Assembly: GCA_913057175.1 (NCBI GenBank)
Contig: CAJXNP010000006.1
Span: 248,001-312,000 of the forward strand
DNA: 64,000 nucleotides
Reading direction: 5' to 3'
DNA from: an uncultured Cytophagales bacterium
GTDB taxonomy: Bacteria > Bacteroidota > Bacteroidia > Cytophagales > Cyclobacteriaceae
Shown one piece after another: positions 16,333 to 63,496 of the stretch; the first letter of the stretch is position 1, and every line of letters begins with the position of its first letter. The notes beneath the pieces are model-generated. The model was given only the letters and a program-made list of their open reading frames with translations, was not told where the DNA came from and did no database searches. The position numbers and the translations under genes were made by a program.

Positions 16333-17220
16333 ATGAAGAAAAAGGACATGTATTTGGATCTTGATATAAAGCAGGATAAAGCCTACCGGCAATTAGCAGA
16401 AACGATGGCTGCCGAATTGGTTGCTCTGACGAAGAAAAAGGGTCTGATCGATACAAGGGTACATGAGTTGAGGAAACAGCTCAAGAAGATGAGAGCCCTT
16501 CTCCGCCTGATTCGAATACCGATTGGCAATTCTAAATACAAAAGCTGCAATTACTTTTTCAGGGATTTCGGCAGGGAGTTTGGCGACGCGCGTGATGCTA
16601 AAGTAAGAGTGGGCACGCTTCAATCGCTCAAAGAACCTGTAGATGAATCGATCGAAGAAAAAGCCTTTAACAGACTTGAGGAGCTTTTGGTAGTTGAACA
16701 CAAAAATGCCAAGAAGAAATTGAACAGAAATTTTTGGAAGGAAATGCAGATGAAATCGGCATCGGCAAAGCCCCTTATTGTTCACAATATTCATAAACCT
16801 GACGGGTTTAAGACCTATAAAAAATCTGTCAAGAAAGTGTACAAAGGAGGTTATAAGGCCTTGAAGATTGCCATCGAGAACCCGAAGGCAGAAGAGTTGC
16901 ATGAATTTCGCAAGCAGGTAAAGTACCTGAGGTATCAGTTGACCTTTCTGGATGCCATGTGGCCAAAGATGCTTCAGACGATGGAAGACGTGATGCATGA
17001 CCTGTCAGATTTACTTGGCAATGACCATGACCTGTATGATTTGGTTTCATGGCTTGAAGAGAATGACTGGCCGCAAATGTCTGAAAACGAAAAAGAACTA
17101 TTAAAGGGTCTGGCATGCAAAAAGCAAAGTGTATTTCGAAGTGAAGCGCTCAAACTAGGCCAGAAGATCTATTATGAATCCCCTTCTCAATTTATCAATC
17201 GATTGGAAAGTTATTGGTAA
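16333..17220 (+). CDS. CHAD-domain protein (polyphosphate-binding helical domain)
   Basis: A protein of 295 residues, no signal peptide. The two conserved-histidine helices of CHAD are seen: VHELRKQLKKMRALLRLIR near residue 43 and LHEFRKQVKYLRYQLTFLD near residue 193, with DFGREFGDARDAKV between. Later helices include MHDLSDLLGNDHDLYDLV. Basic, His/Arg/Lys-lined helical bundles of this kind bind inorganic polyphosphate. There is no attached triphosphate tunnel (CYTH) domain. The last 116 bp of the gene recur as a direct repeat at 28812-28928. Confidence 0.9.
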   Translation: MKKKDMYLDLDIKQDKAYRQLAETMAAELVALTKKKGLIDTRVHELRKQLKKMRALLRLIRIPIGNSKYKSCNYFFRDFGREFGDARDAKVRVGTLQSLKEPVDESIEEKAFNRLEELLVVEHKNAKKKLNRNFWKEMQMKSASAKPLIVHNIHKPDGFKTYKKSVKKVYKGGYKALKIAIENPKAEELHEFRKQVKYLRYQLTFLDAMWPKMLQTMEDVMHDLSDLLGNDHDLYDLVSWLEENDWPQMSENEKELLKGLACKKQSVFRSEALKLGQKIYYESPSQFINRLESYW

Positions 17221-17221
17221 C
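17106..17221 (+). repeat. Direct repeat, left copy (3' end of CHAD gene)
   Basis: From gggtctggcatgcaaaaag to the stop codon this segment matches 28812-28928 with one substitution and one inserted base. Identity stops sharply on both sides. It forms the left border of an 11.6-kb segment. A short homologous block (ttgtcacctcgaccgg) also follows both copies, at 17295 and 29012. Confidence 0.9.
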
Positions 17222-17403
17222 GTTTTTATCCAGTAATTTTGCTACTTTAAAAGCACGTGGGTTCTCTATCTAAGACCCCGCTTAAACAATTAAGTTGTCA
17301 CCTCGACCGGTAAGGAGAGGTCTGCTAAGTACTCATTCTAAACTCAATTTTGTCATTAGCAAAGCGCCCAAATTAATGGTAAAAAATATTGTGGATTTTA
17401 TTT

Positions 17404-17850
17404 CTAAAACTTCTTTATCCATTTTAACACCTTGTGAAAAGGGTCGACTTTGCCAACAAACATCATGGGACATCCGTTTTTGATCACTGTTATTCCTTTT
17501 TCTCCGGCTAGCTGGTCTGCTTTGGGTGAGTAGCTTCCCTGCCCGATCCCCTTGTGCATCCAGACAAGGTCGACATGGTTGTCAAGGCATTCTTGCATGA
17601 CTTTCTCCGAAACTACCGGAGTGCCGGCAAGCATGACAGCTTCTGGTTTTTCGGGCAACGAAGAAATATCGGGATAACATGTTAAGCCCTCAACAACTTC
17701 TGCATGAGGATTGACCGGATAAACGTCATAACCGGCATCTTTGAATTTATGAAAGATATGATTTGCAGGGATGTCTCCTTTTCTTGACACGCCCACAACG
17801 GCAATTTTCTTTTTGCTGAGAAATTCGATGATAAGTTCTGTTTGTATCAT
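17404..17850 (-). CDS. CoA-binding domain protein (YccU-like)
   Basis: A protein of 148 residues, the normal size for single-domain CoA-binding proteins. The Rossmann core shows KKIAVVGVSRKGDIPANHIF with the nucleotide-binding loop, then GYDVYPVNPHAEVVEGLTCY, SSLPEKPEAVMLAGTP and the C-terminal VIKNGCPMMF. The family resembles the CoA-binding half of succinyl-CoA ligase but has no catalytic partner, and its role is not established. It lies just inside the left direct repeat and is not clearly coupled to its neighbours. Confidence 0.92.
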   Translation of the reverse strand: MIQTELIIEFLSKKKIAVVGVSRKGDIPANHIFHKFKDAGYDVYPVNPHAEVVEGLTCYPDISSLPEKPEAVMLAGTPVVSEKVMQECLDNHVDLVWMHKGIGQGSYSPKADQLAGEKGITVIKNGCPMMFVGKVDPFHKVLKWIKKF

Positions 17851-17941
17851 TTTGATATGAATTTCATACTTTTCAGTCGAATATCATATGATAAATATCA
17901 GCCATAGATTGTGTTTTCACCAGTAAGACCTGCATGTTAAA

Positions 17942-18055
17942 GTTGGAAACAGCTTTATCCTGCCTTTTATCAATCAGAAAAAGGTTATTATGTGTTGGGA
18001 TACCGGGATGGGGATGGTTGATGATGTTTTCACCAACAACAAACTAGGGAGTAAT
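17942..18055. repeat. Dispersed intergenic repeat, copy 1
   Basis: The stretch agctttatcctgcc, aatcagaaaaagg, gggatggttgatgatg and caccaacaacaaactag aligns in order with 25731-25860 (copy 2). It sits in the otherwise empty 456-bp gap between the CoA-binding and papain-like genes. Confidence 0.65.
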
Positions 18056-18245
18056 AATTTCAGTAAACAATAACCATAGAGCATATATGATTTAGATAAG
18101 ACTCAAAGCTTATATATTATCATCGAAGGTTCCATATTTTAGGATTACCTTAAAAGACACAATGATCCTTGAGTATTTATGATTTTAACAAATAACAAAT
18201 TCATTTTTCTAATTGAGACGACAAAACCAAATCATTGTAACAGAT

Positions 18246-18276
18246 AAAAAAACCATTCGACTGAATGGTTTTTTTA
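18246..18276. terminator. Bidirectional intrinsic terminator
   Basis: A stem aaaccattc/gaatggttt with a 4-base loop is flanked by A-runs on the left and T-runs on the right, so it works in both directions. It lies 31 bp beyond the stop of the papain-like protease gene on the minus strand. Confidence 0.9.
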
Positions 18277-18306
18277 ACAGAACAATAATATAAGTGGAGG
18301 CGTGCC

Positions 18307-19974
18307 TTATTCCTCCTTGATCATGACAAAAGGACTTTCATCAGTTTCGCCAATAGTATGTCCGGAAATATTTCCTTTTGTATGATTTAAATGTTGACCT
18401 TTCAGGTTTATTACACCTTCATCTAAATTAATCTCAATAAATACTTGGCTGTAATGAATCTTTGGAATACGCATGCGAGCATTTCGTGCTATACCATCTT
18501 CACCGGTAAAGGTTCCCGTGATAAAGTAGTTTTCAGGGAACTCTAATCTATAGGGTTCAATCTCATCCAGCTCAATCCTTCCAACTTGTTTGTCCAAATG
18601 GATGGCCCAGGAAGAATTTTCAAAACTGGAAGGCGAAAATGGTCTGAGCGTCAAAGCCCCTTCACTAAACAAATCACCTTTAATAGCATATCCGGCATAT
18701 GATCTTCCATCAGGGTCAGTATGGAAGCCAGCCATGTAATCATCGTCAGAAAGATAATATTCAAACCGACGGCCACCAATCTCATCCCACCGGGCATTGG
18801 AATTTGAGTTATCCAGGTAAAATACTATCTTATTTCCATCGATATTTCCATTTACCTTAAATGCTTTTCCATTAGGAGCATAAAAAGAACCAATGCGCTT
18901 ATCATCCATGCCAATCAAATCACTCCTATATCCCGGAAGATGGTAAATATCCAGGATACCATCATGACCATCGAACACCAGATTCCACCTTCCGACAAAT
19001 TTAAACGCGTTCCATTCCTGAGGGTCAACCATAGGTAATGAAATGTAGGCTGCAGAAGTTCCAAACTGCCGGACAAATTCATAGGACACTTTTGTAAAGT
19101 TATCTGGCGTTGATGTAAAGCCACTTCCCCAGCTATTTTTGACGATAAAATAATGATCGTCCGGATTGGAGCTGGTTTTATCAAATCCCACAATCAGCAT
19201 GCTATGTGTAATGTCAACACAACCTGTACCACCCATTGGACAAGGTATCCATATATCCCCACGCAAGGTTAGTCCATCAAAATCCCAGGCAATTTCGAAA
19301 CCACGCCTTAAAATACCTTCCATAAAGTCGGTATCTCTGGAGAATTCACCGTTTCCAGTTTGAGGGCCATAAAACTTTCCTTTGGAAGCACCATAAAACT
19401 TGTCGGAATGTTGCAAATCGTATGTTAATTTACTTGGATCCAAATTGAAGTTGCTCATCACCCGTTGTTTATTGTAGACAGGCGAACTCCAGTCGTTGTG
19501 AGCTAGCGTTGGGTCGTTAACAGTGTTATATTCTGAATCTTTGTAAGGCATAAAATCTTCTTTTGGAACCCTTAATCCCTTGGTAAGCATTGAGTAAATG
19601 TAATAAGCCCCACTACCACCTCCAAAAGCACCAACTTGCGTTTCACTTCCGTCGTTGCCCTTGGCCTCGATTTCACTCCAGTTAGGATGCAACCAGAATG
19701 TTTTACCAACATGATTCACAAATTCTTCGCTTAGGTCTAGGTCGCCATACCCATTTCGTTTATAAGCAGCTTCAAGGCAAGCTACAGCAGCAAAAGATAT
19801 ACAGGTGTTTCTATTGCCCTGAAATTTTATGGAGGTTTGTTGTGGTCTTAAATCCACCCGATCATCTGATGAGAACACTTCCGGTGGGGTTTCAAATTCC
19901 TCATCACACGATACTAATACAAGAGCCATAGCCACTAGGAAAGGGCTCAAACATTTTGTCATTAAATTTTTCAT
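18307..19974 (-). CDS. Papain-like (C1) cysteine protease lipoprotein
   Basis: A protein of 555 residues. The signal MKNLMTKCLSPFLVAMALVL ends in VSC, giving lipid Cys23. Residues 42-290 form a C1-type domain: the active-site Cys58 in QGNRNTCISFAAVACLEAAY (compare QGxCGSCWAF of papain), His257 in DITHSMLIVGFD and Asn280 in YFIVKNSWGSGF. The oxyanion Gln may be Gln52. The last 250 residues are a beta-rich region with internal similarity (FVGRWNLVFDGHDGILDIYH; YFITGTFTGEDGIARN), unlike known C1 tails. No obvious propeptide is present. It lies beside the sigma/TPR/CHAT genes and is on the same strand as the sigma operon. The substrate is unknown. Confidence 0.85.
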   Translation of the reverse strand: MKNLMTKCLSPFLVAMALVLVSCDEEFETPPEVFSSDDRVDLRPQQTSIKFQGNRNTCISFAAVACLEAAYKRNGYGDLDLSEEFVNHVGKTFWLHPNWSEIEAKGNDGSETQVGAFGGGSGAYYIYSMLTKGLRVPKEDFMPYKDSEYNTVNDPTLAHNDWSSPVYNKQRVMSNFNLDPSKLTYDLQHSDKFYGASKGKFYGPQTGNGEFSRDTDFMEGILRRGFEIAWDFDGLTLRGDIWIPCPMGGTGCVDITHSMLIVGFDKTSSNPDDHYFIVKNSWGSGFTSTPDNFTKVSYEFVRQFGTSAAYISLPMVDPQEWNAFKFVGRWNLVFDGHDGILDIYHLPGYRSDLIGMDDKRIGSFYAPNGKAFKVNGNIDGNKIVFYLDNSNSNARWDEIGGRRFEYYLSDDDYMAGFHTDPDGRSYAGYAIKGDLFSEGALTLRPFSPSSFENSSWAIHLDKQVGRIELDEIEPYRLEFPENYFITGTFTGEDGIARNARMRIPKIHYSQVFIEINLDEGVINLKGQHLNHTKGNISGHTIGETDESPFVMIKEE

Positions 19975-20113
19975 TTTCTTTTTCTTTTTGATTTAGCCCT
20001 TAGTGTTTGTCAAAAAGAATAGGTTACCGTAAATTTGAAAAAATCTGGTATTTTTTTGAAAATTGCCCTTAATGGAGCAAAAAACACAGTTTATACCTAT
20101 AGAGCGTAGGTTT

Positions 20114-20851
20114 TTATTTCAGCTCACTTAAGATTTCTTGGGCCTGGCTGGCAAAAATATGGTCATTGGCAACCATGTTGTTCAATAGGATGACTGCTTT
20201 ATCATGATCGCCTTGATCTATATGTATAAGTGTCATGTACCAGTCGGCCAACTCAAGAGGAAGGCCTTGTGCCGTCTTTCTGACTTCCTCCAAATGATCA
20301 ACCGCAGCTTGGGGATGATTAAGCGATATTTGACAGACGGCTACATATACCTGAACCATAGAATTCTCGTTATCAGAAAGGTAATTTTCGAGGCTGGAAA
20401 GCGCTGATTGATAATCTTTTGCATTGTAGGCAGCCATGCCTTTCATAAGATCTGGATTGTCGGTTTGTGACCTTTGGGTGAGAATATCTTCATATGGTGT
20501 GTAATAAGCTAAAAATAGCTCTTTGTCTGATCTGGAAGCATCCATGATACCAAAGTACCACAAACCTGTTGGAATTATTATTAGCAAGACTATAGCGGCA
20601 TATTTCAGAAAAGTATTTAGTGAAAAGGATTTCGATTTTCGGATATCCTCTTCCCAGTTTTGAAGATTACCCATAAACTGATCTACACCTTCATCATTAA
20701 TCGATTGCATGATAAGCACATAATCTTCTACCTTTTGATTAAATGCGTGATCAGAAGACCTTCTTAATTCGAAATCCTTAAGATCTTTCTCACTTAACTT
20801 TTCTTTAAAATAGCTTTCTATTAATTCGATATCCTTTTCTTCCTTATCCAT
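20114..20851 (-). CDS. Anti-sigma-like membrane protein with periplasmic TPRs
   Basis: Counted from the ATG at 20851, 245 residues. The start is chosen because it follows the sigma gene stop by two bases and gives the typical opening IELIESYFKEKLSEKDLKDF seen in Bacteroidota anti-sigma-like proteins. Residues about 1-80 are charged and cytoplasmic, one membrane helix follows (FLKYAAIVLLIIIPTGLWYF), and the remaining 140 residues are TPR-like (MAAYNAKDYQSALSSLENYL, YVAVCQISLNHPQAAVDHLE). No zinc-binding anti-sigma motif is seen. The tight coupling with the sigma gene and topology suggest it holds the sigma factor; this is inferred. Confidence 0.75.
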   Translation of the reverse strand: MDKEEKDIELIESYFKEKLSEKDLKDFELRRSSDHAFNQKVEDYVLIMQSINDEGVDQFMGNLQNWEEDIRKSKSFSLNTFLKYAAIVLLIIIPTGLWYFGIMDASRSDKELFLAYYTPYEDILTQRSQTDNPDLMKGMAAYNAKDYQSALSSLENYLSDNENSMVQVYVAVCQISLNHPQAAVDHLEEVRKTAQGLPLELADWYMTLIHIDQGDHDKAVILLNNMVANDHIFASQAQEILSELK

Positions 20852-20853
20852 AT

Positions 20854-21426
20854 TTACTGCTGTTCTGCCAATTCCTGCAAGTCTTTTCTGATTTTTTGCA
20901 AGCACTGGCATTTCTTTTTTTTCGCAACCGAATCACTTTTATACCCCATATCCCTGGCAATGCTCTCCATGGAGAAATTTCGGAAGTAATATAGCTCAAG
21001 TATGGTCTTACAGGGTTCCTTAATCCGCTTTAGTATACTCCGAACTACTTCCTGTCTATGAGTCAACTCCTGTTTTTCTTTAAAATCATGTATCGCCATT
21101 ATACTTTCAGGTATGTTTTCCAAAGAGGAAGATTTTCTAATACGCAAATTGGCTCTGATCAGGTTTTTACCAATGCCAAATAAGTAAGTTTCTATCGAAC
21201 TATCCAATGTTGTTATCTTCTCCTCTTTAAAATTCAAAAATAGAATGGTGAATGCACGTTGATACAATTCTATTGCGTTTTCTTTATCTATGGAATAGTT
21301 TTTGAAAAACCATCCTATAAACCGATTCCTGTGATGTTCATAGAGTGATTTAAGTGTAGCTTCATCACCTGCTTTAATTTTCTCCAGGAGCATCCCTTCA
21401 TCGATATTTGTTATTCCATTATTCAT
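20854..21426 (-). CDS. ECF-type RNA polymerase sigma factor
   Basis: About 190 residues from the ATG at 21426; a TTG at 21489 would add 21 residues of non-family sequence. Region 2 is seen as LKSLYEHHRNRFIGWFFKNY and ELYQRAFTILFLNFKEEK. Region 4 is seen as CKTILELYYFRNFSMESIAR followed by DMGYKSDSVAKKKKCQCLQK, a helix-turn-helix for the -35 element. It is transcribed with the TPR membrane protein, and is divergent from the lipoprotein and CHAT genes, which makes the 21427-21602 spacer a likely target promoter. Confidence 0.9.
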   Translation of the reverse strand: MNNGITNIDEGMLLEKIKAGDEATLKSLYEHHRNRFIGWFFKNYSIDKENAIELYQRAFTILFLNFKEEKITTLDSSIETYLFGIGKNLIRANLRIRKSSSLENIPESIMAIHDFKEKQELTHRQEVVRSILKRIKEPCKTILELYYFRNFSMESIARDMGYKSDSVAKKKKCQCLQKIRKDLQELAEQQ

Positions 21427-21602
21427 TAATGCGGTGAGAGGTAAAGGAGTTACCGCTGTGCTTATATTAATATGTGAAAATTTAATCAACGATCAAAAAC
21501 ACAATATCCAATTCTGCTGTAGAGAATTGATAATTGATTGACTTTCACTGATTTAATGGTTATATTGAATGTTAACCAAATTGATTATTAACCAAATATG
21601 GT

Positions 21603-22154
21603 ATGAAGGCTCGCATATTTCTATTATTTCTTTTGATTTTAGGATTAGTGTGGATGACAAATTGCGTCAAGAAGGAGGATACTGCGCCGGACAATAATGA
21701 TCAAACACTTATCTTCGGTAATGGTGATTGTGATTGTGCCTTATCAGAAATACCAATGGAATGTGAGTCTATTTGCAATAGTACTTACATGACGCTGTAC
21801 AATGCAACTTTCATTATCCGAGGCCGTGGATGTAAACTCCCGACAGATTGCTTTCCAGATTCGCCAACTTTAAATGAATTCATATTAAAAGTTTTAACAG
21901 AGCAACCTGAAGAAACTGAAGCAGCTATTGTCAATTCAAGTAACATGGGAGTGGCGCTTCCTACCGATGATTATGGGGGTTCGTCGTCGTTTGATAGTGA
22001 AACAGGAATGACAACCTTTAAATTTGGATGGGTGGACAGTCATATTGGAGGACAACTCTATCTGAGTCTTAAAACCGTGATCAAGCAACCAGATGGAAAA
22101 CTTAAAGTCATCGAACTACAAGAGGATTTGGGAATGGATTTCTTTGCTAAATAA
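21603..22154 (+). CDS. Cysteine-rich lipoprotein of unknown function
   Basis: A protein of 183 residues. The signal MKARIFLLFLLILGLVWMTN ends before Cys21, a lipoprotein. After it come six cysteines within about 60 residues (NGDCDCALSEIPMECESIC, RGCKLPTDCF), enough for three disulfides, then a Cys-free beta-rich half (GMTTFKFGWVDSHIGGQLYL). I do not recognise the family. It is 23 bp upstream of the CHAT gene on the same strand, so the two are probably co-transcribed and act together in the envelope, as sensor, inhibitor or substrate. This is inferred from position only. Confidence 0.75.
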   Translation: MKARIFLLFLLILGLVWMTNCVKKEDTAPDNNDQTLIFGNGDCDCALSEIPMECESICNSTYMTLYNATFIIRGRGCKLPTDCFPDSPTLNEFILKVLTEQPEETEAAIVNSSNMGVALPTDDYGGSSSFDSETGMTTFKFGWVDSHIGGQLYLSLKTVIKQPDGKLKVIELQEDLGMDFFAK

Positions 22155-22177
22155 TTAATATTTTCCTCGGCGATCTT

Positions 22178-25075
22178 ATGACCTTTTTAGCTATACAAAA
22201 AACACTTGGGATCAGTATGTTCTTTTTATTATCCCCAACTGTTTATGCGGCAACAACCAACGACAGTACCCGTCAGGCATTTAACCAGGCGCTGGAGGAT
22301 ATAGGAAATAGTTATTTTTATGAACGTCCGGATACAGCTCTTCAGTTGTATTCATACTATCTAAATAAGGCCAAAGATGAAAAGTTGTGGGATGAATATT
22401 TACATGTCGTTCTAAATTTGGCATCAGTTGCCAGTCATTTGGATAGTATGTCCATGCTGAAAAGGTACCTTGAAGATGGGCAGAGGGTATTAAAGGAATA
22501 CTCAAATGTCATTTTACGATATGATACCATCGGATTTCTTAGATCTAATTTTTATTATTTTCAGGGGCGGCATTATTATGATCTCCTGGATTATCACCAG
22601 GCGATCACCGCATTTGATCAGATTCTCAAGCTGAGAGAAGTTGTTTCTGATTCTCTCCTGGCATTTGATACCCACGTGTCTTTGGCTCAAAGTGCGTTGA
22701 ACCTGGGAGATTTTGTAAAGGCGCAACATCACTTTGACCTTGCAGAACATTGGCTACCCAAACACCACAATACCTATGTCGCAGGTAGGGGGTATTACTA
22801 TCAAAAGGCATTTATCAGTACGCAAATAGGTCATGCTAAGTATTATGAAGCCCGGATAGATAATCAGTTAGAAAGCTTTAGACAAACACTTGACCAGTAT
22901 CAATTAGCGTGGAAACAGTTGGGAGGTCTGTCTAAGAAAAAATCCAGTTGGAGTCTTGCTGTGACAATCACTAGAAGTATATCCCAGTGCTATCTGGATT
23001 TGAAAAACTATGATAGCTCCGTGTACTATATGCAACGCTTGTTAAATCTTCCTTCACGTTCGTTGACCGATGAGATTTATAATCTGGTGCACGCAGTCCA
23101 TGTCCGATTTGCCTTACAACAATTTGATGAGGCCAGGATTCACCTGAGAAATGCTCAGTCCATCATGGAAAATAATTTTCCTGCAAATCATGCCTTGCTA
23201 GGTCGTATTATCCGATTGAAGGGAGAGTTATGTTTTCATCAAAATAAGCTTGATTCTGCGATAATCTATTTTAACGAGGCGACCACATATTTTATAAAAG
23301 ACGGTTTACAGGATAATCAAGGGATCATCGGTGATTTTGATATACTCAACATCTATGAAAAGAAAGCAGATGCGTTGGCAAAGTCGGGCACAGTTGCAGA
23401 TTTGATTGTGGCCATTCAGTATTATAAAATGGTTGTTGACTTTGCCGCAACCATGCGTCAATCGTTTATCTCACAACAATCACATCAATATTTATTAGCA
23501 GATATCTATCAGGTTTTTGAAAAAGCGTTAGATGCAATACAAGTGTTCAGGCATAAGGAACCTCAAAATAAAAGTTGGAAGGAAGATTGCTTATATTTCT
23601 TTGAAAAAAATAGAGCGAATCATCTTGCCAATAATCATCGCCAATTAGAAGCCGTTCGTGCCCAATTGATTCCCTCAGGCTGGTGGGAGCGAGAACAGTT
23701 GTTAAAGGGGAACATTGCCTATTTCAAACGTCAACTCATTCAGAAAAATATAGGACTTACTAAACTTGAACAGGCATATGACGAATATGAGGCATTTACA
23801 GATTCTTTAAAGCTGTTTTATCCCGAGTACCTGGATTGGGAGGGGGGACAGCAAGTGCAAAAGGAAGAGGATATTCTAAAAATATTGCCCAGTGATAGCC
23901 GATTGCTATCGTTCTTTTGGGGGAAGGAAAATCTGTATGTTCTTTTAGTTGATCACAAAACATTTGATATGAAACGTCTTCCAATAGAAGAGATTTCTTC
24001 GCAGCTTATAGATTATTTATCACATATTCAAAATCCTCCTGGTACAGTTGAAGAATTAAATATGGAACTTATTCAAGCAGGTCATAGTCTCTATGTTTCA
24101 TTTCGCGAAGTCCTGACAAGTGGTCACAAGTCGTATGTGGTCATTCCTGATGGTCCACTAGCATACCTGCCATTTGAGGCGCTGGTGGTTGATTATAAAG
24201 CAGACGAGCCTGACTGGTTTTTATATAATGCGACTGTCTATTATGCTCCCGGAATTTCAATCCTGCTGAAATTATTGACAGATTCTGAATCAACAAGCGA
24301 GTCACTGAGTTATTTGGGTGTTGCTCCTGACTATGGAGCAATCCAGACTTCATCCGAAAAGAACAAACTGGCTCCATTATCACATAATCGGGAAGAAGTA
24401 AGGCAAGCTGGTAGAATCTTTGGTGGTACAATGCTTTTTGGAGAGAAGGCAACAGAATCCAACTTCAAGAAATTAAGTGGAAATAAACAGATAATACACT
24501 TAAGTGCACATGCAACTGTGAACCGGCTATACCCTAATTACAGTGCAGTATACTTTGAGCAAGATATAGAGGACAGCACTGAGGTTGTTCAGGTTTTTGA
24601 GATGGATGGTATTTTACATCTATATGAGTTGTATGGATATCAATTTCAAGCTGAACTCGTGGTACTTAGTGGTTGCGAAACGGGTTACGGCACCTATGCT
24701 AAAGGAGAGGGAGTTCTTAGTATTGGCCGCGCTTTTCAACATAGTGGACGTCCTGCAGTTACCTTAAGTTTATGGCGGGTTAGTGACCTTTCCACTGCTA
24801 CCATCATGGAAAACTATTTTAAGCATTTGCATAATGGAATGTCCAATGAGCAGGCTCTTCAGAGTGCTAAAATAGGATATTTAAAAGATCCAATGCATAA
24901 ATATTTTCAGCATCCATATTACTGGGCTGCGTTTATCCTGCAAGGTAATCCTAATCCAGTAGTTAGCAAGCACAATTTCATTTTGTTTTGGATTTTTGGC
25001 ATAGTTACCATGTTGCTTGTAGGCTTGTCAACTCTCAATTTATATAGGAGGAAGAATAGATGTAAAAAGAGGTAA
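22178..25075 (+). CDS. TPR-CHAT domain protease, secreted and membrane-anchored
   Basis: A protein of 965 residues. An N-terminal signal peptide (GISMFFLLSPTVYAAT) is followed by about 480 residues of TPRs (LASVASHLDSMSMLKRYLED, IIRLKGELCFHQNKLDSAII), a coiled segment near 500-560, and a CHAT caspase-like domain from about 640 to 920. The catalytic dyad is His778 in IIHLSAHATVN and Cys833 in VVLSGCETGYGTYAKGEG, both in the conserved contexts. A C-terminal helix (FILFWIFGIVTMLLVGLSTL) ends in a basic tail (RRKNRCKKR), so the protease domain most likely faces the periplasm. CHAT proteins are caspase/separase relatives; some act with TPRs as sensors. It is downstream of the Cys-rich lipoprotein. 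Confidence 0.92.
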   Translation: MTFLAIQKTLGISMFFLLSPTVYAATTNDSTRQAFNQALEDIGNSYFYERPDTALQLYSYYLNKAKDEKLWDEYLHVVLNLASVASHLDSMSMLKRYLEDGQRVLKEYSNVILRYDTIGFLRSNFYYFQGRHYYDLLDYHQAITAFDQILKLREVVSDSLLAFDTHVSLAQSALNLGDFVKAQHHFDLAEHWLPKHHNTYVAGRGYYYQKAFISTQIGHAKYYEARIDNQLESFRQTLDQYQLAWKQLGGLSKKKSSWSLAVTITRSISQCYLDLKNYDSSVYYMQRLLNLPSRSLTDEIYNLVHAVHVRFALQQFDEARIHLRNAQSIMENNFPANHALLGRIIRLKGELCFHQNKLDSAIIYFNEATTYFIKDGLQDNQGIIGDFDILNIYEKKADALAKSGTVADLIVAIQYYKMVVDFAATMRQSFISQQSHQYLLADIYQVFEKALDAIQVFRHKEPQNKSWKEDCLYFFEKNRANHLANNHRQLEAVRAQLIPSGWWEREQLLKGNIAYFKRQLIQKNIGLTKLEQAYDEYEAFTDSLKLFYPEYLDWEGGQQVQKEEDILKILPSDSRLLSFFWGKENLYVLLVDHKTFDMKRLPIEEISSQLIDYLSHIQNPPGTVEELNMELIQAGHSLYVSFREVLTSGHKSYVVIPDGPLAYLPFEALVVDYKADEPDWFLYNATVYYAPGISILLKLLTDSESTSESLSYLGVAPDYGAIQTSSEKNKLAPLSHNREEVRQAGRIFGGTMLFGEKATESNFKKLSGNKQIIHLSAHATVNRLYPNYSAVYFEQDIEDSTEVVQVFEMDGILHLYELYGYQFQAELVVLSGCETGYGTYAKGEGVLSIGRAFQHSGRPAVTLSLWRVSDLSTATIMENYFKHLHNGMSNEQALQSAKIGYLKDPMHKYFQHPYYWAAFILQGNPNPVVSKHNFILFWIFGIVTMLLVGLSTLNLYRRKNRCKKR

Positions 25076-25179
25076 ATTGATTAATGGCGGAATAGAGTAT
25101 TGCTAAGGAATGGTTATAAACCAATGTGAAAGCGTCAAATCCCTGGGATTAACGCACTCCATTGCTTTTACTCGAAATT

Positions 25180-25715
25180 CCGGATGAAACTGTACGCCCC
25201 ATTCAGGGGTAAGTGGGCATCTTATTCCGGTAAAACTACACACCCTGTACCGGTGAAACTGTACACCCCCTATGTTAGCATTTCAAATTTTTTTGTAATT
25301 GTAATTTTCTAAGAAGGTGTACTCTTGGGCTTTTAAATTTTAACAAGCCCAACATGTCTAACAAAAAGAATGATATGCTAATAATCCGACAATTAATCGA
25401 GTTAAAACTCCAGAAGGTCTCTCATAAATCCATCACCAAACAACTTGGCATCAGTCGTACCACTTCATTCACTATGTCAGGCAGCTTGAAGCAAGCGGTC
25501 TTGGCTGGAAACAATTAGATGAGATCGATGATCCTGCCCTTGCTGTTATTCTTACTGGCAGTGAAAGAAAAGACCGTTACAGACGCCTGCTCAGTTTTTC
25601 GCCTATATGGAAAAAGAGCTCTAATGCTGGGGTGTGGCCAGACAGTTTCTCTGGAAGGAATACAAGGCCGATGAAACTGACCCTTTTTGTTCTTTTTTAC
25701 AAATAAAACCTGATT
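25180..25715 (+). mobile_element. istA: IS21-family remnant: end repeats and decayed istA
   Basis: Three copies of a 20-bp end repeat lie at 25180-25200, 25227-25247 and 25250-25270 (ccggtgaaactgtacacccc type), the hallmark of IS21-family termini. An istA-like start at 25354 reads MSNKKNDMLIIRQLIELKLQ and KQLGISRTT, then frameshifts into HYVRQLEASGLGWKQLDEID, and later YMEKEL-stop-CWGVARQFLWKEYKA, again istA-like. Only the first quarter of the transposase remains, with several frameshifts and stops; istB is absent. The remnant is inactive. Confidence 0.8.
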
Positions 25716-25730
25716 GTTGATGATGAAAGC

Positions 25731-25860
25731 TGCTTTATCCAGCCAGGTATGAATCAGAAAAAGGGAATTATATATTAAGATATCAGGATGGTTGTTGATG
25801 TACGACCTTCGGCAAGCATACGACGACCGATGGAAAAACACCAACAAGGAACTAGAAATA
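25731..25860. repeat. Dispersed intergenic repeat, copy 2
   Basis: Aligns with 17942-18055 in the blocks gctttatcc-gcc, aatcagaaaaagg, ggatgg-tgttgatg and caccaacaaggaactag. A 38-bp insertion (tacgaccttcggcaagcata and following) separates the last two blocks. The final block also recurs near 26344-26372. Confidence 0.6.
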
Positions 25861-25973
25861 GTTGATGCAAAGAGATTTTTCGTATTTCATTCATGTGTGT
25901 AACAAAAGTTACCATTTTTATCCAGTCAGGCTAATTACCTTAGCTCTGGACAAAATCATTTAAACCAATCGTT

Positions 25974-26228
25974 ATGAAAGTTTCGGAAAATATTGATATT
26001 AACTCCATGAGAGGAGATATCGCCAAAGTCAGAGCTCATGATGCCATTGTGGGCGTATTATATTTGAGCTCAGTGGTTCTTGCCTATCAGTTTGGAATGG
26101 AATGGCTCTATATTGCCCTGGGAGTTGCCATTTTACAGATCATCAGTCCAATCACAAAATTTTGCCCGGTATATATGATATTGAATAAGCTCATGCCAAA
26201 TTCCACTCCCATGCAAAACGGGAAATAG
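25974..26228 (+). CDS. DUF2892-type small membrane protein
   Basis: A protein of 84 residues with two hydrophobic helices (AIVGVLYLSSVVLAYQF and WLYIALGVAILQIISPITKF) and the DUF2892 pattern ending FCPVYMILN, as in the membrane part of YgaP-like proteins. The N-terminus has no rhodanese domain. Its function is not known; relatives often sit near sulfur or redox genes. It is isolated, between the IS21 remnant and repeats. Confidence 0.8.
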   Translation: MKVSENIDINSMRGDIAKVRAHDAIVGVLYLSSVVLAYQFGMEWLYIALGVAILQIISPITKFCPVYMILNKLMPNSTPMQNGK

Positions 26229-26304
26229 CCAATCCACTGGCGTCTACTTAGTGTGGCAAATTGCATGTGAAATATTCAGGAAGCCATCCTGACTTCCATC
26301 TCTG

Positions 26305-26360
26305 TTGGTGCTTTCACCAACAATACTCTCATGCTCCATCCTTGTTGGTGAAAGCACCAA
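26305..26360. repeat. 17-bp perfect inverted repeat
   Basis: Arms ttggtgctttcaccaac (26305-26321) and gttggtgaaagcaccaa (26344-26360). A weaker outer stem (actctc/gagagt) follows. The right flank shares the ccaataatgaactag theme with the repeats at 17942 and 25731, so this is another member of that family. Confidence 0.75.
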
Positions 26361-26378
26361 TAATGAACTAGTTGAGAG

Positions 26379-26670
26379 TGATTTATACTGGCAATGCAAC
26401 TGCCTGCCTGGCGGGCTATAGCCGTCAGATAAGCCCCGTTATATGGGGCGAAATATCGGTAGAATAGATTTGAAATCGTAGAGCAGTGCTATAAGTACGA
26501 TACATGTTTCATCCCTAAAGGGATTAAATCCAGCTTTGACATAGTTCTACCGATATTATGTCCCTAAAGGGACAACAAATATCCTAGCCTGAAAGGTATC
26601 GTCGGCAAGGCAGGATTGGCTTTTTCTTCCATCATCGTTATCGCTTTCGCTCAATCGAGGATGATGGGGC
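26379..26670. repeat. Composite repeat with an inserted palindromic element
   Basis: Outer blocks gtgatttatactggcaatgc and catcatcgttatcgctttcg (then ctcaatcgaggatgatg) are adjacent in a second copy at 29114-29187. Here they are separated by about 200 bp that begins cctgcctggcggg and ends ggcaaggcagg. That insert carries an inverted pair atatcggtagaa/ttctaccgatat (26451 and 26543) and two ccctaaaggga palindromes. It reads as a small palindromic element inserted in an older repeat. Confidence 0.65.
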
Positions 26671-26693
26671 TAAATTCAGAATGTTAACTTTAG

Positions 26694-27271
26694 TCATTTT
26701 AGAAAATCTATAATTTTTGATTCTACCTCCTTTTTGAAAATTTCAAATATATTATGCGCCGAATTAAGTCTAATGGGAGGCCTTCCTAGTTTTCCATTAT
26801 AACCAATACAATTGTTTCTAGAGTTAAATAGTAATTTGTTTTTAGAATATATAATAGTAATAATCTGTGAAAAAGGAAAAGATTTATTGAAAACCCCAAT
26901 AAAAAAAAATCTCTATTATTTTTGTGTACTTCAATGCCAAGTTCCTCAGAGATACTTAAGACAATCTGTCTATAAATTGCTGTATTGCTAGTGTCAATAG
27001 TTTTTAGTTTCCAAATTTTTGAGACATTTCGATATAATGAAAAGATTCCAAGAACTAATCACAGAGATGCTGTGATAGTTGTATGGAATGAAATTTCAGT
27101 ATTTCCTGATTCGGTTCTTTCATAAAGCATCATTGAGAACCAAATATTTGGGAAAATTAAGATAAGAATAGGAATATTTAAATCATCTGACCAATCGTGA
27201 CTTATGAATACAAGTCGTTTTTTCTGCTTACTCTCTTTAAGGTTAATTTTATCAAGATAAATTTCAAACAT
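26694..27271 (-). pseudogene. Broken gene of unknown function (stop plus T-run frameshift)
   Basis: The frame starts MFEIYLDKINLKESKQKKRL and runs through a hydrophobic stretch (LNIPILILIFPNIWFSMML). It hits a TGA at 27059-27061, continues in the same frame as LVLGIFSLYRNVSKIWKLKT and IDTSNTAIYRQIVLSISEEL, then loses frame at a run of nine T (26901-26909). Adding one T restores GVFNKSFPFSQIITIIYSKN and GRPPIRLNSAHNIFEIFKKE to a stop at 26694. A two-helix membrane protein with a cytoplasmic basic domain is suggested. I do not recognise the family. Confidence 0.6.
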
Positions 27272-27292
27272 TGTTAACTTGCTCTATCAGTT

Positions 27293-28003
27293 TTAATGGA
27301 AATTCTTCAACTTATATCCAAATGTTAGTCTCACAACAGAATTCCTGAGCGATTGATCATAAACAAGATTTTCATACTTCATTACTCTGTAAAAACCATA
27401 ATCGTAAGAAGCCTGGATGGTGAATGATTTCATTTCAATACCTAAACCTGCATTCATTCCATAATCAAGCCGGTTGACAAATTTTTCTTCAATGGCATTT
27501 TCTAAATCAAATGTATTTTCAATATCAGTTGGTTCTTCATTAACAAAAAATCCGGATGTTGAAGTGTCAAAAAGCCTCAGGTTGATGTATGGTCCGGCTA
27601 ATGCATAAAAATTTATGTCGTCAACTATGAATCTGAACTTCACAGTCATGGGTATTTCAAGATAATATTCATTCAAAAAATTTTCGAACCTGTAGGTATT
27701 TGTTGTTGATACTGTTGGGTCTTCAAAATCCGGCACAAAATAATGGTATTCACTTTTCTCCCTTTTTAAAGAGAATTGTATGCCTGGTGTAAAATAAAAA
27801 TTGTTGTTTAAATCAATTTCAATTGCCGAACCTACATGGAATCCTGGCCTAAAAAAACTTTGACCATTATAATTGTCCTTCTGCTGATTTAACCTGGAGA
27901 TATTTACCCCTCCATTTAGATAAATTTGTTGTCCATAAGAAAAATCAGCAACCGCAAACATTAAAAAAATAGATAGTGCGAAAGATATATTGAAAAAGTT
28001 CAT
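27293..28003 (-). CDS. Outer-membrane beta-barrel protein (PF13568-like)
   Basis: A protein of 236 residues with a signal peptide (ISFALSIFLMFAVADFSYGQ). Alternating beta strands follow: GGVNISRLNQQ at the N-terminus, HVGSAIEIDLNNNFYFTPGI, YYLEIPMTVKFRFIVDDINF, GPYINLRLF and the closing strand VVRLTFGYKL. The GG-N--R opening and the YLEIP-KF block are typical of the Bacteroidota 'porin family' barrels of eight strands. No enzymatic role is evident. Its position 22 bp after the broken gene is not clearly operonic. Confidence 0.85.
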   Translation of the reverse strand: MNFFNISFALSIFLMFAVADFSYGQQIYLNGGVNISRLNQQKDNYNGQSFFRPGFHVGSAIEIDLNNNFYFTPGIQFSLKREKSEYHYFVPDFEDPTVSTTNTYRFENFLNEYYLEIPMTVKFRFIVDDINFYALAGPYINLRLFDTSTSGFFVNEEPTDIENTFDLENAIEEKFVNRLDYGMNAGLGIEMKSFTIQASYDYGFYRVMKYENLVYDQSLRNSVVRLTFGYKLKNFH

Positions 28004-28132
28004 TTAAAAAAATAAGGTTACAATGAAAAAATATTTTGTAAAAATGCTATTAATTTCAGACCAACGCAACCTAATTTTTAACAATTATTCATGGGTAGTA
28101 ATCAGGTTGTCAGGTCAGTAGTTGCAAGGCAG

Positions 28133-28684
28133 CTATTCAGTTTTCGGTTCGTAGTAAAGAGTTATTGCACCACCACCAAAGGTTTTGGTCTTTGTGAGTT
28201 TAAGAACAGTTCTGTCGTCTATATTTTCAAATAATGGCAAACCGCTACCTGCTATAACAGGGTGAACGCAAAGCTGGTATTCATCAATCAAATTAAGTTT
28301 CATGAGCTGTATAATCAAGCTCCTGCTGCCAACAAAAATATCTTTGCCCGGTTCCTGTTTGAGTGCTAAGACCTCATTTTCAAGGTCCCGATTTGCCAAT
28401 TTTGCACTTTTCCAATCCACACTTTTAATCGTACGGGAAAAAACAATTTTGGGAATTTTGTCTATAGCTATGGCGAATTCATTCATTGATTTTTCTTCTG
28501 AAGGTGTTTCTAACAGTGTTCGCCAAAATTCCATAAGCTGATAGGTAATTCTGCCATATAGAATGGCGTCTCCCTGACCTAATAGTTCCGTATAGTGTTG
28601 ATGTATTTCTTCATCGGGTATTCCGGCAGTATGGTCGCAAATCCCATCGATTGTCATATTGATTGCTGCAATTACTTTTCTCAT
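28133..28684 (-). CDS. RibD C-terminal/dihydrofolate reductase-like protein
   Basis: From the ATG at 28684, 183 residues. The opening MRKVIAAINMTIDG is the standard start of the family; an ATG two codons upstream and a TTG at 28717 are alternatives. Further blocks are ILYGRITYQLMEFW, PKIVFSRTIKSVDWKSAK, KDIFVGSRSLIIQLMKLNLI and HPVIAGSGLPLFE, all typical of NADPH-binding RibD_C reductases. These stand-alone proteins are probable NADPH-dependent reductases; the substrate is not established. Confidence 0.92.
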   Translation of the reverse strand: MRKVIAAINMTIDGICDHTAGIPDEEIHQHYTELLGQGDAILYGRITYQLMEFWRTLLETPSEEKSMNEFAIAIDKIPKIVFSRTIKSVDWKSAKLANRDLENEVLALKQEPGKDIFVGSRSLIIQLMKLNLIDEYQLCVHPVIAGSGLPLFENIDDRTVLKLTKTKTFGGGAITLYYEPKTE

Positions 28685-28764
28685 ATTCATCAAGTTAATC
28701 AACCATAAATCTCGCAATAAAATTCACTCTATTGCAGTACTGTTTTGACAATCTTAGCGGGGGA

Positions 28765-28801
28765 TTCCGACAAGTAAGAATCGTCCCAAATGTCGGAATG
28801 T
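28765..28801. repeat. Small hairpin
   Basis: Arms attccgaca and tgtcggaat with a loop of about 17 bases, upstream of the DHFR-like gene on its minus strand. It lies immediately left of the right direct-repeat copy. Its purpose is unclear. Confidence 0.5.
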
Positions 28802-28811
28802 TAAACGAATT

Positions 28812-28928
28812 GGGTCTGGCATGCAAAAAGCTAAAGTGTATTTCGAAGTGAAGCGCTCAAACTGGGCCAGAAGATCTATTATGAATCCCCTTCTCAATTT
28901 ATCAATCGATTGGAAAGTTATTGGTAAC
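28812..28928 (+). repeat. Direct repeat, right copy (orphan 3' end of CHAD gene)
   Basis: 117 bp matching 17106-17221 with an inserted t (gctaaagtg against gcaaagtg) and one a/g change. No upstream coding part is present, so this is a copied gene end. It marks the right border of the 11.6-kb accessory segment. Confidence 0.9.
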
Positions 28929-29550
28929 ATTATGATTCAGCGATTTAACGGAGTTTTACAAATCATGGATATCTGTCGAAGACTCCATTTAACATTCAAA
29001 CAGTTTATTGATTGTCACCTCGACCGGCAGGGAGAGGTTTGCTACGTTCTCATTAAAAAAGTAATTTCCTTGTGGCCTAAAAGTGTGGAAAGATTAGATT
29101 GATTAAGTGAATTGTGATTTATACCGGCAATGCAATTGCCTTTCTCTAACATCCTCGTTACCGCTGTCGCTCAAACGAGGACGATATGGGAAAGCGGTAA
29201 CGAGGACGATTGGGATAGTTCCTGAAACCCCAATGAAACCAATAAAAAACTTGATCAGTCCGGTTATAAACATTTTTTAATTGTAAATGAACTGTAATGA
29301 GTGAATAGAAACAACTGCTTTTTCCTTTTTATACCTTAGGCATAATTCAATATGATATATACGAAACAAGCCCCAAAAATTATTTCTATGCTCACAACAA
29401 AATAATTGGTTATGTCTTAGTGGGGGTTTGCTCAAGGGACCCTGCGTTTAAAAAAAAATCATTCTTAACCCCCAAAGATTTTGATTCATACGGCCTATTG
29501 CTTTATAACTTTCCAACACGTAATTTGCACAGTTCTTTCAGGTTATACAG
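28929..29550. other. Intergenic debris before the hybrid kinase gene
   Basis: No intact gene. It holds the ttgtcacctcgaccgg block (29012-29054, also at 17295), and the second copy of the gtgatttata-ggcaatgcaa repeat (29114). A long hairpin has arms atcctcgttaccgct (29151-29165) and agcggtaacgaggacgat (29193-29210). The last 150 bp are AT-rich and probably carry the promoter of the downstream gene. Confidence 0.6.
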
Positions 29551-53140: not shown

Positions 53141-53668
53141 ATGAATTTAACGAAAGGAATTATGGAATCAATTAAAGAGAGAAAAACAATCAATACTTCG
53201 AATAAGTTAGGCTTTTCAAAATCGCAAACAACAGTGTTAGTCGAACCAATGAATGCCCTTCTGGCCAATTACGTGGTTCACTATCACAAACTGAGAAATT
53301 ACCATTGGAATGTGGTAGGACCTGATTTCTTTGATTTGCACAATGAATTCGAGGTACTTTACAACGAAGCTAAAAGCAATATTGATGATATCGCCGAACA
53401 AATCAGGGTTTTCGGAAGAACGCCACTCAGTACAATGGCCGATTTTCTTGCCACATCAGAAATCCGTGAAACGGGAACAGACCTTAAATATGATGAAATG
53501 GTAGGAGAAGTTCTTAAAGATATGCGTACCCTTATCGATTTGATGTACCATGTTTTGGACAATGCCATCGAAATCGGAGATTCAGGTACAGAAGATATGA
53601 TGAAAAAATTCATCAAGGGATTGGAAAAACACCATTGGATGCTGAACAGTTTTTCTATTCAGGCCTAG
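53141..53668 (+). CDS. dps: Dps-family ferritin-like protein
   Basis: A protein of 175 residues; an ATG at 53162 is an alternative start. The four ligands of the inter-subunit ferroxidase site are present with exact spacing: His55 and His67 (NYHWNVVGPDFFDLHNEFE), Asp82 and Glu86 (SNIDDIAEQIRVFG), as in Listeria Dps (His31, His43, Asp58, Glu62). Such 12-mers store iron and protect DNA from peroxide in starvation. The upstream palindrome may control it. A related tail fragment persists at 63323. Confidence 0.97.
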   Translation: MNLTKGIMESIKERKTINTSNKLGFSKSQTTVLVEPMNALLANYVVHYHKLRNYHWNVVGPDFFDLHNEFEVLYNEAKSNIDDIAEQIRVFGRTPLSTMADFLATSEIRETGTDLKYDEMVGEVLKDMRTLIDLMYHVLDNAIEIGDSGTEDMMKKFIKGLEKHHWMLNSFSIQA

Positions 53669-63322: not shown

Positions 63323-63441
63323 GATGTTCTGGACGATGCCATCAAAATTGGAGATTTCGGAACGGAAGACTTGATGAAAGAATTTGTCAAAGGTCTGGAA
63401 AAAAATATTGGATGTTGAACAGTTTTTTTATACTGGTTTAG
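63323..63441 (+). pseudogene. Dps C-terminal remnant
   Basis: The plus-strand frame DVLDDAIKIGDFGTEDLMKE then FVKGLEKN matches the intact Dps end HVLDNAIEIGDSGTEDMMKK then FIKGLEKH. After this a one-base deletion shifts frame, although the nucleotides still match through the stop (ttggatg-tgaacagttttt). Nucleotide identity is roughly 78 percent by eye with mostly silent changes, so it is an old paralogue tail, not a recent copy. Confidence 0.8.
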
Positions 63442-63496
63442 GGATGATAATTTTAGGTTGAACAAAAACTTATGGTTTTCAAAAATCCCAATCCCT

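Follow-up and report, generated by a model that had tools for sequence, protein, structure and literature searches.

The window analysed here is a stretch of 64,000 nucleotides of contig CAJXNP010000006.1 (C6:248001-312000) from an uncultured Cytophagales bacterium, whose genome is a 6.62-Mb draft of 40 contigs that is 98.7% complete. It contains a CHAD-domain gene whose last 116 bp recur downstream, the two copies bracketing a segment of 11,590 bp. Two ages are combined in this one repeat. The gene tails are 99% identical and the DNA behind them is related though diverged, and comparison of the two sides indicates that the 99%-identical block lies within an older duplication of roughly 250 bp. 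We tentatively favour, with rather less than even confidence, an integrase-free insertion-duplication anchored on the CHAD gene, the tail having been homogenised afterwards or during the event. The features on which this rests are the following.

16333-17220, + strand: intact CHAD-domain gene, 295 aa (Pfam CHAD, E 1.1e-25)
17106-17221, + strand: left copy of the tail, 116 nt, within the intact CHAD gene (stop codon 17218-17220)
17222-17350, + strand: left spacer and dispersed composite repeat, core 17295-17327
28773-28811, + strand: marginal resemblance to CHAD in front of the orphan tail, perhaps more of the decayed gene
28812-28928, + strand: right copy of the tail, orphan, 117 bp, frame broken by one extra T
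28929-29067, + strand: right spacer and dispersed composite repeat, core 29012-29044; diverged relative of the left spacer

The tail copies (17106-17221 and 28812-28928) are direct repeats in the same orientation, 11,706 bp apart from start to start. The sole substitution between them, A17157 versus G28864, is synonymous (CTA/CTG), and a T inserted at 28832 shifts the frame of the right copy. The initial annotation of this DNA had described such a recurrence, with one substitution, one insertion, an intact gene on the left and an orphan tail on the right, and both the repeat and its geometry are borne out. Chance resemblance of the tails was rejected, because the BLAST E-values for the whole repeat are 2e-60 and 2e-58. 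Searches of the 98.7% complete draft reported just two copies of the CHAD tail. Among the 25 other genomes with a CHAD match, 19 give an alignment that reaches the final residue; the tail is therefore CHAD's own, and it is the right-hand copy that is orphaned. Misassembly of the draft at the 116-bp repeat is unlikely.

Identity had been described as stopping abruptly on both sides of the tails. Upstream, the similarity is indeed only marginal: 23 of 39 aligned positions are identical, a result that 4 of 300 shuffles equal in score, and the stretch holds four codons for the same amino acids (QMSE), in frame with the end of the orphan tail. Downstream, the description does not hold. In a fixed register, 32 of the first 60 bases past the tails are identical, a match as good as which was found in none of 50,000 mononucleotide shuffles and at only 25 of 1,489,886 forward-strand positions on four contigs, both copies included. 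Part of this signal is due to the composite repeat, which begins near 17259. An outward alignment anchored at the tails scores 78 downstream, where the best of 300 dinucleotide shuffles reached 18; without the repeat core the score is 25 and the best shuffle 19.

Read from left to right, identity is 23/39 upstream, 115/116 in the tail, 17/37 and then 25/36 in the spacer, 30/33 in the repeat core (17295-17327 and 29012-29044), 16/23 in the next stretch and 10/30 after that. The contrast between tail and spacer has a Fisher p of 2.7e-14. The initial annotation had already remarked that the flanking block is more diverged than the 116-bp core; the remark is correct, and the central observation is just this difference in age within the repeat. 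A single simple event would not be expected to leave the orphan tail at 99% and the adjoining spacer at ~50-70%, since neither is under evident selection. A 9-bp perfect inverted repeat (28764-28772 and 28791-28799) was also seen by eye in this region. Its right end is separated from the orphan tail by 12 bp, and the stretch it spans (28764-28799) overlaps that of marginal CHAD similarity.

The repeat behind each tail belongs to a dispersed family. The 'ttgtcacctcgaccgg' block is present in six copies at three mismatches or fewer in the 6.6 Mb of the genome, and all six copies of the TTGTCACCTCGACCGG...GGAGAGGT repeat lie on the listed forward strand. The six copies form three local direct pairs, 0.9 kb apart on contig C1, 6.9 kb apart on contig C9 and 11.7 kb apart in the window. 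By best-scoring match, the nearest family member is a C1 copy for the left repeat of the window and a C9 copy for the right one. Being nearest to different members of the family, the window copies are not fresh copies of each other, and the view that the block at 17295 and 29012 was part of the same recent event as the tails was rejected. The repeat begins 75 bp past one CHAD stop codon and 85 bp past the other; the presence of the same rare repeat at these distances would be a remarkable coincidence unless both spacers descend from one CHAD spacer. A second dispersed repeat lies just beyond.

29123-29185, + strand: second dispersed repeat, with a 90% copy 28 bp behind a Y1 (RAYT-like) transposase gene (C6:49700-50245)

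This second repeat is found on one side of the transposase gene, and two Y1 transposase open reading frames (ORFs) were seen. A repeat copy directly behind a Y1 transposase gene is the neighbourhood known for RAYT-served repeats. A RAYT-like transposase acting on palindromic repeats might have moved the first repeat together with the adjoining CHAD 3' end, and the three local direct pairs of that repeat would agree with such copying. The repeat should then match at least as well as the tail, whereas it matches at 30/33 in its core and more poorly around it, against 115/116 for the tail; the C9 pair, moreover, has only 52 bp in common and no gene tail. We consider this explanation very improbable. 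At C1:208284-209289 (L017 1785-2790), the direct pair of the first repeat (~0.9 kb) encloses two small ORFs; by eye these resemble a toxin-antitoxin pair, and they have no Pfam match at E 0.01.

In the scheme that we favour, a related chromosome would have supplied DNA that included a CHAD 3' end with its spacer, the repeat and the genes downstream, and this DNA would have recombined with the resident CHAD gene. One junction would have formed by homology at CHAD and the opposite one by illegitimate joining (homology-facilitated illegitimate recombination), so that the resident 3' end, spacer and repeat would remain as the right-hand orphan. The relatedness of the two spacers would suit a homologous anchor of this kind. 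Both tails may have been copied from the resident one during this event, with the crossover at the end of the coding homology and the joint 116 bp upstream on a sister copy. Alternatively, gene conversion may have evened out the tails afterwards, its tract ending where the flanks match poorly. Either course would be a product of homologous recombination at CHAD. The orphan would then have gained its frameshift, and the silent change would have arisen in either copy. The illegitimate joint would lie near 28811, where the marginal upstream similarity begins; in such insertions the joint often lies at a few shared bases. To the observations this scheme would add a foreign origin of the segment, an order of events and the joint itself, and the whole would be a fairly ordinary kind of genome change.

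The initial annotation had taken the same geometry for an element inserted at the gene end. In such an account, a decayed integrase-type island would have rebuilt CHAD with its own tail and displaced the resident one, as e14 did in icd, and would since have lost its integrase. The geometry and the size class of the repeat are those of e14 and icd as given in the excerpted text of PMC11148124, and the only substitution is synonymous. However, the DNA of an element past the left stop codon should be unrelated to the DNA past the right one. The spacers are related and the same rare repeat stands behind both tails, for which a coincidence would be needed, and site-specific integration is thus unsupported. 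Among the features of integrase-type islands, the gene-end direct repeat that rebuilds CHAD is present; no integrase gene was found among the segment ORFs, and the spacers are related.

The searches point the same way. As had been noted before, no integrase was found among the segment ORFs. Pfam families of integrases, transposases, phages and conjugation systems gave no match above cut-off in these ORFs nor in 9 of the 20 open stretches of 25076-27292, serine recombinases having been sought only through these scans, with 17851-18306 and 28718-28811 outside them. Nine segment proteins were compared with PHROGs, and only the sigma factor matched, to transcription-regulation families; beyond regulators of this type, no phage, plasmid or conjugation family was found in the segment ORFs. 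The exact tail pattern and the exact repeat pattern each had 0 matches in viral contigs. Rfam yielded nothing at gathering scores in 13000-36000, and no tRNA genes were found in the window. Six tyrosine-integrase matches are present in the genome; the one on C6, at C6:131380-131775, lies to the left, 116 kb from the window and 133 kb from the segment, though the contig ends 41 kb right of the segment. An integrase-type island at CHAD is, on this evidence, unlikely.

Elsewhere on C6, 116-bp direct repeats (82%) at C6:118752-118867 and C6:131053-131168 lie 12.3 kb apart, and the tyrosine integrase gene (domain C6:131380-131775) is situated just outside the right copy. As the possible site of a true integrase-type element, this pair of repeats is more convincing than the CHAD locus.

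The bracketed segment (17222-28811) has a G+C content of 0.377, at the 10th percentile of 1,446 same-size windows from four contigs, and its same-size flanks have 0.418 and 0.415 (88th and 83rd percentile). This step supports the accessory character that had been assigned to the segment. In the comparison scripts, ORFs are mechanical calls. The segment contains the following features.

17404-17850, - strand: CoA-binding protein gene, first in the bracketed segment (Pfam CoA_binding_2, E 1.1e-24)
18307-19974, - strand: C1 (papain-like) peptidase gene, module member
20114-20911, - strand: TPR protein gene, module member (TPR matches under the Pfam cut-off)
20854-21489, - strand: ECF-type sigma factor gene, module member (NCBIfam sigma70-ECF, E 1.3e-12, above cut-off)
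21603-22154, + strand: small conserved protein gene, module member (no Pfam match; homologues in L160 and L161)
22178-25075, + strand: TPR-CHAT protein gene, 965 aa, module member (Pfam CHAT, E 7e-47)
25076-27292, no strand: decayed stretch rich in repeats, holding a single small ORF for a YgaP-like membrane protein (25974-26228)
27293-28003, - strand: outer-membrane beta-barrel protein gene (Pfam OMP_b-brl_2, E 4.1e-17)
28133-28717, - strand: RibD_C gene, of which 182 bp near the 3' end (28141-28322) recur at C9:168400-168581, 91% identical, as a fragment

The module members form a divergent arrangement, with the C1 peptidase, TPR and ECF sigma genes on one strand and the genes for the small protein and the TPR-CHAT protein on the other. 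This five-gene block (18307-25075) is intact and not debris. The IS21 debris mentioned in the initial annotation was not confirmed: at 25279-25515 there is only a helix-turn-helix match below threshold (E 0.036). The segment also contains a 110-bp direct repeat (74%), its copies at 17914-18023 and 25694-25800 lying 7.8 kb apart; no further copy was reported, and the pair may delimit a unit within the segment. Near the RibD_C fragment on C9 (L015 1901-2082), a short Y1 transposase ORF lies ~1.5 kb away.

All five module genes are found in the same arrangement in two genomes of one other genus, G077 and G133 (L160 4346-10997 and L161 9346-14282), the CHAT homologue of G133 being split in two pieces. 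In a further genus, G266 and G282 have three and four of the five genes, respectively, and the peptidase is placed differently in G282. Homologues of the CHAT protein alone are present in 297 of 390 family genomes, our own included (E <=1e-20). The module and CHAD are separate in these relatives: they are on different contigs in G077 and 2.3 Mb apart on one contig in G133 (839 kb versus 3.14 Mb). A search of eight segment proteins against a defence library gave 0 matches, none for the five module proteins. With two protease-like partners and its own sigma factor, the module is worth study in its own right.

CHAD itself has matches in 3 of 39 genomes in the search of relatives and in 26 of 390 in the family search, our own being counted in both. 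No congener was found, the 39 genomes of the relatives search including none marked as the same genus besides our own. We compared 20 of the 25 other CHAD loci (12.7-20 kb each; G005, G048, G060, G275 and G302 were left out) with 37 window proteins at E <=1e-6. None of the 20 has a segment gene beside CHAD at this threshold, and the flanking order is not conserved; the genera compared are too distant to decide on an empty site. A CHAD scan of genome contigs returned no relative. The neighbouring peroxidase-like gene was found at 12 loci, with a best identity of 64% and no CHAD match at any of them; the best are Flammeovirgaceae metagenome entries, followed by Catalimonadaceae, Saprospiraceae and others.

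Duplicated gene ends also occur at other places in this genome. One such pair is in the window itself.

53552-53668, + strand: comparison scar, 3' end of a Dps-like ferritin gene (53141-53668; Pfam Ferritin, E 2.6e-24)
63326-63442, + strand: comparison scar, orphan Dps-like 3' end (92/116 identical, 2 gap positions)

Here the last 117 bp of the gene are repeated directly, ~9.8 kb apart and 79% identical. The differences number 9, 4 and 11 at codon positions 1, 2 and 3, a weak lean to silent sites. FG-GAP, SusD-like and TonB-receptor genes are bracketed, with no integrase domain, and the G+C content of the bracketed segment is high (0.427, 94th percentile). This scar is older than the CHAD one. 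In the second case, a pyridine nucleotide-disulphide oxidoreductase gene has its first 107 codons and the DNA before them repeated directly at C6:102192-102708 and C6:112320-112832 (L047), 10.1 kb apart and with 286/321 identical positions in the coding part. Thus, gene-end scars are peculiar neither to CHAD nor to 3' ends. One may speculate that the lineage repeatedly adds accessory blocks of ~8-12 kb beside resident genes without an integrase, each leaving a truncated direct copy of its anchor gene, and that the scars are refreshed by gene conversion long after. The anchors would be the CHAD 3' end, the Dps-like 3' end, the oxidoreductase 5' end on C6 and others. We regard a habit of this kind as improbable.

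Local repeats in general bear on a second explanation, duplication within the genome. By tandem duplication or template switching, CHAD or its 3' end with the spacer would have been copied ~11.7 kb downstream; most of the copy would have decayed there, and gene conversion would afterwards have restored the tail. Non-coding or mixed repeat pairs, clustered and counted on six contigs (pairs within ORFs on both sides being counted apart), are direct rather than inverted in a ratio of 32:5 at 1-20 kb, 18:14 beyond 60 kb and 75:104 between contigs (Fisher p 1.4e-6, the bins below 1 kb and at 20-60 kb being left out of the test). Clear decayed local duplicates exist as well: in a comparison of queries of at least 150 aa, self matches excluded, C1:255696-255901 was found to hold two pieces, one N-terminal and one C-terminal, of a protein of 339 aa whose gene lies 7.9 kb away. 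A donor, moreover, is not needed. Set against this, the direct excess at 5-20 kb, 20:1 in the four contigs where it was first noticed and 14:1 there in the six-contig count, was not repeated in two fresh ones (2:2), which gave 7:0 at 1-5 kb; the excess is taken only as background. Only ~250-290 bp similar to the left side were found right of the orphan, and the G+C step is left unexplained. In-genome duplication is accordingly a serious possibility that we nevertheless doubt. We narrowly prefer the insertion anchored on CHAD because the G+C content drops in the segment and because relatives carry the cargo away from CHAD.

Several points weigh against that insertion. Neither a relative with an empty site nor the proposed donor arrangement was found, and the mostly direct local repeats suit in-genome duplication equally well. 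A 10th-percentile G+C content is not exceptional, and nine other bracketed segments that were measured fall on both sides of the median, four higher and five lower. The first 36 spacer bases are weak when taken alone, with 17 identical and 588 of 50,000 shuffles as good. The illegitimate joint is not visible without the donor, and the marginal similarity upstream of the orphan would, if real, shift or remove it. Genes with comEC-like and dprA domains are present in the genome, and these families match 10 and 11 of 14 control genomes, Escherichia coli included; being so widespread, they prove nothing about DNA uptake.

Gene-end direct repeats are easily taken for att sites of lost mobile elements. 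Checking whether the DNA behind both tails is related spoke here against the att reading and for homologous recombination with gene conversion. Should other loci pass this check too, some "decayed islands" would be recombination scars, and a contrast such as 99% versus ~50-70% within one repeat would be a marker of recent conversion.

Precedents for the mechanism are described in the excerpts of PMC3240628 (E. coli conjugation), PMC5361080 and PMC2884548. Homology-facilitated illegitimate recombination is named in the latter two for Acinetobacter, Streptococcus pneumoniae and Pseudomonas stutzeri, and the portions excerpted describe, as proposed here, a single homologous anchor, no integrase, and foreign DNA placed beside a resident gene. 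The CHAD case differs in being known from its scar alone and in needing an added homogenisation or a sister-copy duplication. For the latter, the excerpted account of S. pneumoniae transformation merodiploids (PMC3784515) reports duplications that arise at the time of recombination through two sister copies.

The displacement arrays of Vibrio type VI loci, as outlined in the excerpts of PMC5361080, are alike in that incoming DNA joins at a homologous anchor and the resident 3' sequences are displaced downstream, where they remain as orphans. They consist of effector-immunity modules whose immunity genes are kept, whereas the CHAD locus has a plain gene tail without evident use. The small intergenic repeats of REP/RAYT systems, with a repeat copy beside a Y1 transposase gene, resemble those described here as far as the excerpts of PMC6006769 and PMC3733652 describe them; our first repeat has only six copies, and the likeness is judged by copy number and neighbourhood. 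Finally, e14 in E. coli icd (PMC11148124 and PMC6379469, in their excerpted parts) likewise duplicated a gene 3' end of similar length, leaving one intact and one orphan copy; the repeat comprises 165 bp of icd with 12 exchanges (PMC11148124). According to these excerpts e14 is a cryptic prophage with an integrase gene, whereas none was found in the CHAD segment and the DNA behind its two tails is related.

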